The position numbers were made by a program, and so were the translations under genes. Below the pieces are notes generated by a model. It was not told where the DNA came from. It did not search any database and saw only the letters and a program-made list of their open reading frames with translations. Shown in pieces: positions 29,233-30,251 of a stretch of 64,000 nt of DNA. The stretch lies in contig NZ_CP073586.1 of assembly GCF_022267555.1 (NCBI RefSeq), positions 1,612,001 through 1,676,000 of the forward strand, read 5' to 3'. How positions within the stretch are numbered: position 1 is the stretch's first letter; the number at the start of each line of letters is the position of its first letter. This stretch comes from Proteiniphilum propionicum. GTDB lineage: Bacteria > Bacteroidota > Bacteroidia > Bacteroidales > Dysgonomonadaceae.

Positions 29233-30178
29233 GCGGAAGTAGCTCAGGATCGGTAGAGCACGACCTTGCCCCAAAGAATCAGGAAATGGAACCGGGCTTG
29301 GCAAGGATTCTGCAAATGAGAAAGTTGTTCTTTATTTAGTTGTAAATATCGCGGAAGTAGCTCAGGATCGGTAGAGCACGACCTTGCCCCAAAGAATCAG
29401 GAAATGGAACCGGGCTTGGCAAGGATTCTGCAAATGAGAAAGTTGTTCTTTATTTAGTTGTAAATATCGCGGAAGTAGCTCAGGATCGGTAGAGCACGAC
29501 CTTGCCCCAAAGAATCAGGAAATGGAACCGGGCTTGGCAAGGATTCTGCAAATGAGAAAGTTGTTCTTTATTTAGTTGTAAATATCGCGGAAGTAGCTCA
29601 GGATCGGTAGAGCACGACCTTGCCCCAAAGAATCAGGAAATGGAACCGGGCTTGGCAAGGATCCTGCAAATGAGAAAGTTGTTCTTTATTTAGTTGTAAA
29701 TATCGCGGAAGTAGCTCAGGATCGGTAGAGCACGACCTTGCCCCCAAAGAATCAGGAAATGGGAACCGGGCTTGGCAAGGATTCTGCAAATGAGAGAGTT
29801 GTTCTTTATTTAGTTGTAAATATCGCGGAAGTAGCTCAGGATCGGTAGAGCACGACCTTGCCCCAAAGAATCAGGAAATGGAACCGGGCTTGGCAAGGAT
29901 TCTGCAAATGAGAGAGTTGTTCTTTATTTAGTTGTAAATATCGCGGAAGTAGCTCAGGATCGGTAGAGCACGACCTTGCCCCAAAGAATCAGGAAATGGA
30001 ACCGGGCTTGGCAAGGATCCTGCAAATGAGAGAGTTGTTCTTTATTTAGTTGTAAATATCGCGGAAGTAGCTCAGGATCGGTAGAGCACGACCTTGCCCC
30101 AAAGAATCAGGAAATGGAACCGGGCTTGGCAAGGATCCTGCAAATGAGAAAGTTGTTCTTTATTTAGTTGTAAATATC
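29233..30178 (+). repeat. Eight 118-bp tandem repeats carrying a tRNA-Gly 5' half
   Basis: Units start at 29233, 29351, 29469, 29587, 29705, 29825, 29943 and 30061; the period is 118 bp except the fifth unit (120 bp, one extra C and one extra G). The first 38 bases copy the tRNA-Gly 5' half from acceptor strand to anticodon, but the D-loop has GATC in place of TT. The remaining 80 bases are not tRNA sequence. Units differ only at ATTCTG/ATCCTG and GAGAAAG/GAGAGAG, in different combinations. There is no CTTCCGC partner for the acceptor strand, so the units cannot fold into a mature tRNA. No coding frame is credible. Confidence 0.97.
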
Positions 30179-30251
30179 GCGGAAGTAGCTCAGTTGGTAG
30201 AGCACGACCTTGCCAAGGTCGGGGTCGCGGGTTCGAGTCCCGTCTTCCGCT
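30179..30251 (+). tRNA. tRNA-Gly (anticodon GCC)
   Basis: A complete 73-base cloverleaf: acceptor GCGGAAG/CTTCCGC, D arm GCTC/GAGC, anticodon arm CGACC-TTGCCAA-GGTCG (anticodon GCC), variable loop GGGTC, T arm GCGGG-TTCGAGT-CCCGT with a G-T pair, and discriminator T; CCA is not encoded. It directly follows the eighth repeat and precedes the integrase, so its 3' end probably served as the integration site. Confidence 0.97.

Follow-up and report, generated by a model that had tools for sequence, protein, structure and literature searches.

An array of partial tRNA copies upstream of tRNA-Gly(GCC)

The window examined here is a stretch of 64,000 nucleotides from the genome of Proteiniphilum propionicum, which is assembled as a single contig of 3.9 Mb and is 99.99% complete. 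Positions 29233-30178 are filled by eight near-identical tandem units, seven of 118 bp and one, the fifth, of 120 bp through two one-base insertions; the tandem-repeat call on the array gave a period of 118 with 98% matches and a score of 1883. The last unit adjoins, without any gap, an intact tRNA-Gly(GCC) gene, which ARAGORN reported for the window, passing over the units. The features are the following:

29162-29192, + strand: predicted Bacteroidales-type promoter upstream of unit 1, read from the sequence and composed of TTTG (29162-29165), 19 nt and TACATTTG (29185-29192)
29233-29350, + strand: unit 1, 118 bp
29351-29468, + strand: unit 2, 118 bp, which served as search query
29469-29586, + strand: unit 3, 118 bp
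29587-29704, + strand: unit 4, 118 bp
29705-29824, + strand: unit 5, 120 bp
29825-29942, + strand: unit 6, 118 bp
29943-30060, + strand: unit 7, 118 bp
30061-30178, + strand: unit 8, 118 bp, adjoining the tRNA and divided into tRNA-like 5' half (30061-30098), purine-rich loop (30099-30119), antisense strand (30120-30134) and spacer (30135-30178)
30120-30134, + strand: antisense strand of unit 8 (inverted repeat I9), 87% complementary to 30208-30222 and paired in the predicted fold
30179-30252, + strand: intact tRNA-Gly(GCC) (ARAGORN; RF00005, 71.4 bits)
30208-30222, + strand: tRNA nt 30-44, the antisense target in the anticodon arm, from the inverted repeats and the predicted fold

A preliminary description of this DNA had reported eight 118-bp units ending in the real tRNA-Gly. 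The array is indeed real, with the correction that one unit measures 120 bp. The same description took the near identity of the eight units as a sign of recent amplification or gene conversion, and this near identity does point to recent amplification or homogenisation. A single copy multiplied by an assembly artefact is unlikely, since the units differ slightly in sequence and arrays of 2-4 copies occur in other genomes. The second tRNA-Gly(GCC) gene of the genome is preceded by one unit copy (nt 1-74), the sole other full-length copy found in this genome. Among 47 tRNAs called in stretches taken from the genome, units occurred only at these two tRNA-Gly(GCC) genes; a CAU tRNA of the genome has an anticodon-arm mimic of another kind.

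Anatomy of the unit

Each unit starts with a copy of tRNA-Gly nt 1-36 carrying GATC for TT in the D loop (92% identity over 38 columns), as had been noticed before. What follows had been taken for 80 bases of non-tRNA sequence, and the key feature of the unit was thereby missed. In the aligned units, tRNA nt 1-36, through the anticodon, are followed by CCAA and a variable purine-rich loop and then by NNACCTTGGCAAG, a part that is the reverse complement of the tRNA anticodon arm and has an antisense length of 13-15 nt. Inverted repeats I2-I9 set the antisense strand of each unit against 30208-30222 with 87% complementarity, and the antisense strand in the window has one mismatch with the tRNA. 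The part conserved in relatives is about unit nt 1-74 (with a core of ~70 nt), the other 44 bp being local spacer.

On its own, a unit is predicted to fold no more stably than shuffled sequence (z -0.59 to 0.68), and pairs within the unit, which are largely set by the search pattern, showed no covariation; much of the core is prescribed by the pattern of the collection scan, so that conservation of those letters holds by construction. Predicted pairing with the antisense strand was stronger for the loops than for shuffled versions of them (-3.30 versus -1.64 kcal/mol). Covariation between loop and tRNA type was not supported: among 61 comparisons the own type was better in 11, equal in 34 and worse in 16, and 128 of 500 permutations were as good. 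At loci L009, L014, L015 and L038, leaders and spacers contain additional copies of just the beginning of the tRNA (GCGGAAGTAGC-like, about 11 nt).

Distribution of the element and its linkage to tRNA-Gly

The element is spread over several Bacteroidales families, but its presence is patchy. The preliminary description had proposed searching the unit against Bacteroidetes genomes; such a search recovered the element with a tRNA-Gly neighbour and in 1-4 copies among 120 listed loci (pattern found once at 97, twice at 15, three times at 6 and four times at 2). Within the genus, 28 of 39 genomes carry a copy of at least 56 bits and about 67 nt or longer (model R2); no copy of at least 56 bits was found in the other 11, some of which are incomplete or N-masked. 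Named genome contigs, scanned with a pattern, gave at least 120 stretches with the element; the 120 listed are all titled as Bacteroidales genera or families or as unplaced Bacteroidetes or Bacteroidia. Petrimonas, Proteiniphilum, Fermentimonas, Seramator, Alistipes, Tidjanibacter, Paludibacter, Tannerella, Odoribacter laneus, Mediterranea, Bacteroides and Prevotella are among the stretches listed, together with others such as Candidatus Equimonas, presumably also a member of Bacteroidales. Cultured strains, including Odoribacter laneus YIT 12061 and Seramator thermalis SYSU GA16112, carry the element, which is hence open to experiment. In evenly drawn samples a strict pattern, which misses diverged copies, was found in 3 of 295 genomes of the order and in 1 of 198 genomes of the phylum, the P. 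propionicum genome being counted in both. Model R2 matched all 197 genomes of a class sample, where the listed matches outside the own genome were 40 nt long and were read as tRNA-Gly itself.

A tRNA-Gly gene lies at most 260 nt downstream, on the same strand, at 93 of the 120 listed loci (92 with anticodon GCC and 1 with TCC). In three more listed loci, where the sequence continues for at least 300 nt downstream, N letters fall within or span the tRNA-Gly, and the remaining 24 end too soon. In the single TCC case, locus L053 of a Tannerella MAG, the upstream unit still reads GCC. The cis linkage of the element to tRNA-Gly is well supported by these positions. In 99 of 112 distinct stretches we also observed a TANNTTTG box, which we take to be the Bacteroidales-type promoter consensus, at most 150 nt before the first unit, compared with 14 of 106 stretches taken 300-450 nt upstream and 8% of shuffled stretches; the spacers contained it in 2 of 142 cases. 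Since the box stands above the units and rarely in the spacers, the units most likely lie within the leader of the tRNA transcript, and units and tRNA-Gly would be co-transcribed from the upstream promoter.

Units match the tRNA-Gly of their own genome

tRNA-Gly varies among genomes in the acceptor stem and in pairs 27-43 and 28-42. The acceptor strand of the unit was identical to that of its own tRNA in 100 of 105 cases, with a permuted mean of 28.4 and a maximum of 42 (110 units were compared, of which 105 entered the permutation). Differences between unit and tRNA were commonest in the D loop. Readable units with a changed D arm or loop had an acceptor strand matching the local tRNA in 21 of 21 cases, which argues against wholesale gene conversion, though not against short tracts.

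Similarly, we compared the variable bases of the antisense strand with tRNA nt 42-43 in 105 distinct unit/tRNA pairs, obtained from 153 units of which the others were duplicates or without readable tRNA. Base pairs formed in 205 of 210 positions (permuted mean 164.4, maximum 178), and both pairs formed in 100 of the 105 combinations, which cover three tRNA variants; this permutation test and that of the acceptor strand ignore phylogeny. As the antisense strand stands behind a non-homologous loop, gene conversion is a poor explanation for its match. In Tannerella, L097 carries CG and L103 TA, and in Fermentimonas, L071 carries CG and L079 CA, each matching its own tRNA; such differing matched variants within single genus labels make more than one independent change likely. 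The complementarity of the antisense strand and its tracking of the local tRNA are thus well supported at the sequence level. Both covariation signals are equivalent to identity with the 5' strand of the tRNA itself; a signal like that of the acceptor strand could thus also arise by short gene conversion.

A repeat family inserting at the anticodon loop, as suggested in the preliminary description, is not supported: readable copies lie upstream of one tRNA gene and on the same strand. The promoter box above the units also speaks against it, as do the acceptor and antisense strands matching the tRNA variant of the host.

A predicted chimeric cloverleaf

When the last unit, spacer and tRNA were folded together, 82 of 82 distinct sequences showed the antisense strand paired with the anticodon arm of the tRNA. 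The predicted structure is a chimera, made of the 5' half of the unit and the 3' half of the tRNA, with a long helix in place of the anticodon arm. We analysed it over 65 unit-plus-tRNA loci from which near-duplicates had been removed (L148 was left out and the last unit of the window, a near-duplicate of L009, was added). The minimum-energy folds contained the antisense helix at all 65 loci, pairing of the unit acceptor strand with the 3' acceptor strand of the tRNA at 63 and the native acceptor at none. The T arm was present at 59, the unit D stem at 55 and all four chimera helices at 51; the unit D stem is missing from 10 of the 65 and from the displayed folds of both loci of the P. propionicum genome.

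In the alignment of these loci, 98.5% of the cells of the chimera pair, compared with 94.8% after shuffling and 36-53% in slid versions. The covariation score, in which phylogeny is ignored, was 0.153 versus 0.079 for shuffled alignments, and none of 500 reached it. Cells changed on both sides numbered 111 versus 39.9 shuffled; of these, 87 belong to the acceptor and antisense helices, and the 24 of the ordinary T arm say nothing on the chimera. Two measures were unfavourable: pairs with a double change were 6 versus 4.9 shuffled (5 of 500 reached 6), and further pair types were 11 versus 14.0 shuffled (reached by 500 of 500).

The energy of the chimera minus that of the best native fold had a mean of -12.0 kcal/mol and was below zero at 64 of 65 loci, these energies being equilibrium predictions that ignore tRNA tertiary contacts, modification and kinetics. 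In folds of growing length, the antisense strand paired with the unit's own CCUUGCC at 64 of 65 loci when just made, and with the tRNA at 63 of 65 once the anticodon stem was complete. With the antisense strand shuffled 20 times at each of 30 of the 65 loci, just 8% of minimum-energy folds had the native acceptor, probably because the energy model scarcely penalises large multiloops. As the native acceptor is rare even with a shuffled antisense strand, the acceptor exchange rests on sequence comparison and not on energy. Both folds, and a switch between them, are presented as predictions.

Decayed units and other tRNA leaders

Upstream of tRNA-Gly, loci L191, L193 and L202 have decayed units with an antisense-like strand and no 5' half, and L200 has a unit with an internal deletion. 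L191 retains a 14-bp antisense match in the absence of the 5' half, which counts against a strict need for the latter. At L193 the antisense match has decayed and, by folding, the native fold returns.

Other tRNA leaders showed different features. The leader of a tRNA with anticodon CAU (L247/L223, G000:C1:2921553-2921626, minus strand) contains a sense copy of its own anticodon arm; this tRNA, called as Met, is possibly Ile2. The mimic also occurs at L248, L249, L257 and L274, and other members of the genus have a leader of 12-48 nt. It is possibly a second kind of tRNA-mimic leader. Four of the five CAU leaders tested keep the native tRNA fold, and the fifth, L248, disturbs it via a different pairing. 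At L232, near genome position 1709315, a 14-nt stretch is antisense to the anticodon arm of tRNA-Leu(TAA); it lies 203 nt upstream of tRNA-Leu, beyond the nearest promoter box and inside the end of an integrated element (see below). The leader of a tRNA-Asp (L222, about 140 nt) has two short tandem pieces resembling the 5' part of the tRNA.

A candidate cis-acting folding switch

We propose that the units are a cis-acting folding switch in the tRNA-Gly(GCC) leader, which would attenuate tRNA maturation with copy number as gain control, and we hold the chances for and against this proposal to be about equal. Each unit would supply a copy of tRNA nt 1-36 (5' acceptor strand, D arm and 5' strand of the anticodon arm), the purine-rich loop and a strand antisense to about nt 30-44. 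In a fresh transcript, the antisense strand would first pair with the anticodon half of the same unit (CCUUGCC with GGCAAGG). As the tRNA anticodon arm emerges, the antisense strand would grip that arm over about 13-16 base pairs, the tRNA's own 5' half would be left in a loop and the 5' half of the unit would take the 3' acceptor strand of the tRNA. The 5'-half copy in the unit makes sense because the antisense helix would trap the tRNA's own 5' acceptor strand in that loop. The resulting chimeric cloverleaf would lack a usable anticodon and would be mutually exclusive with native tRNA-Gly. A native precursor would yield tRNA-Gly and a chimeric one would become a dead end or a differently processed RNA; the share of the two folds would thus set how much precursor matures to tRNA-Gly, and the number of units could serve as a slowly evolving gain control. 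We infer this regulatory role, and the fate of the chimera, from the predicted folds and the comparisons above.

In its general form, the idea would be that of a bistable precursor whose refolding in cis determines the supply of tRNA-Gly and whose number of tandem units adjusts the gain; we offer this tentatively, at slightly less than even confidence. To our knowledge, no individual bacterial tRNA gene has been described as controlled by an RNA structure within its precursor. If true, the proposal would define a class of regulation that operates directly on a tRNA gene. The partial tRNA copy would be kept for base pairing and not for decoding, and such copies are passed over by tRNA finders.

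Alternative explanations

The units might act in trans, as sensor, antisense RNA or decoy, if processed units bound mature tRNA-Gly(GCC) at its anticodon arm; they could then serve as a T-box-like gauge of how much tRNA is present, as a sponge, or, when the tRNA is cleaved by anticodon nucleases, as a decoy or splint. Unit and tRNA are indeed predicted to pair as separate molecules (mean co-folding gain of -13.4 kcal/mol over 82 sequences), up to 8 copies would yield many small RNAs, L191 retains its antisense strand without 5' half, and a different anticodon-arm mimic stands in the CAU tRNA leader of some genomes. However, the copies with a readable flank sit in cis upstream of the matching tRNA, which an RNA acting in trans would not need, and such an RNA would have no simple use for a conserved acceptor strand. 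We regard this explanation as rather unlikely.

A passive origin, in which partial tRNA duplicates without function are kept alike by slippage and gene conversion, would fit the variable copy number (1-4 among the 120 listed loci and 8 in the window), the homogenised arrays, the existence of decayed or lost copies and the patchy presence. It fits less well with the antisense strand, which shares just ~8 nt with the sense strand of the tRNA, lies behind a non-homologous loop and seems too short for conversion, and nevertheless pairs with tRNA nt 42-43 in 205 of 210 cases. Also, D-loop differences persist while the acceptor strand tracks the tRNA, and the element recurs across several families. 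Altogether we judge a passive pseudogene or repeat to be unlikely.

The genome also bears traces of integration at this tRNA-Gly. Downstream of the gene lies an ORF for a tyrosine integrase of 435 aa (Phage_integrase and Arm-DNA-bind_5), and the 3' end of tRNA-Gly recurs as a 26-bp copy just before tRNA-Leu(TAA), near genome position 1709510 and about 67 kb away. The integrase-bearing element measures ~67 kb, from window position 30252 to about genome position 1709510. Given the tRNA 3' copy beside tRNA-Leu, it therefore seems to have split a tRNA-Gly/tRNA-Leu operon; an operon of that kind is seen in relatives. We rejected the array as an attachment remnant of this element because the duplicated part is the tRNA 3' end ~67 kb off and a unit stands at the second tRNA-Gly(GCC) locus, where no integrase was seen among the ORFs of a 6-kb stretch read by eye. 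The array is independent of the integrated element and, as the preliminary description had argued in calling the element an ICE, was not made by its integration; among ICE genes, the integrase is the one identified here. No match to the 118-bp unit was found in phage and plasmid records either.

As to a role at the DNA level, the units could be attachment or decoy sites for tyrosine recombinases using the anticodon arm. tRNA-Gly is an integration target here and the antisense strand is an inverted copy of a near-palindromic anticodon arm, but the integrated element uses the 3' end of the tRNA, as its far end shows, phages and plasmids lack the unit in the records searched and a DNA site need not follow the acceptor strand of the tRNA, which makes this explanation very improbable. 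Equally improbable is a leader peptide attenuator with a Gly codon inside the antisense strand: an ATG or GTG precedes that strand in 61 of 131 distinct loops, but the other 70 have no such start, the frames differ (37, 14 and 10) and the group of 14 is the one in which the Gly codon was read as in frame.

Comparison with known systems

Apart from the tRNA, Rfam 15 gave no match at the gathering threshold in window positions 28400-31200 or in 12 loci of relatives; the search of 28400-31200 was run to E 5, and its sub-threshold hits were judged to be chance. No description of such an element was found among the listed titles and abstract openings of the open-licence literature. The passages covered of PMC7366714, PMC2864571 and PMC8040213 do not mention it, and the relevant terms do not occur in PMC10994844. 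The earlier remark that no described element of this design was known thus holds for the stretches searched with Rfam 15 and for this part of the literature.

The proposed cis-acting folding switch shares features with four known systems. Like T-box riboswitches, it would consist of a leader RNA that recognises the anticodon region of a tRNA and of mutually exclusive pairing. T-boxes control mRNAs and bind uncharged tRNA in trans via a specifier loop and the NCCA end, whereas here the tRNA is the product in cis and is faced by 13-15 nt antisense to its anticodon arm. Accordingly, the T-box model of Rfam found no match in 28400-31200 up to E 5 or in the 12 relatives' loci at gathering, and the UGG of a UGGN pairing with tRNA NCCA was, by eye, unconserved in the loops of two unit alignments.

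thrS-type operators resemble the element in having a leader with a copy of part of a tRNA. The E. coli thrS operator mimics the anticodon arm on an mRNA for synthetase binding; here the mimic is a tRNA 5' half, placed in a tRNA leader and accompanied by complementarity to that same tRNA. In Nanoarchaeum equitans, split tRNA genes have a 5' half and a complementary strand that brings the halves together, and splicing is needed, the halves coming from separate transcripts with no intact gene present. As far as the descriptions covered go, the likeness lies in a 5' tRNA half followed by a complementary strand joining 5' and 3' halves. A split tRNA gene was rejected here, as an intact tRNA-Gly follows the units; there is nothing to splice, and the complementary strand covers the anticodon arm itself.

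Finally, tmRNA has a cloverleaf-like acceptor/D/T region with a long helix instead of the anticodon arm, and the predicted chimera likewise combines such a region with a long helix replacing that arm. No tmRNA was called by ARAGORN in the window or by Rfam in 28400-31200. Unlike tmRNA, the chimera has no conserved tag reading frame, and it would be an alternative fold that excludes a real tRNA.
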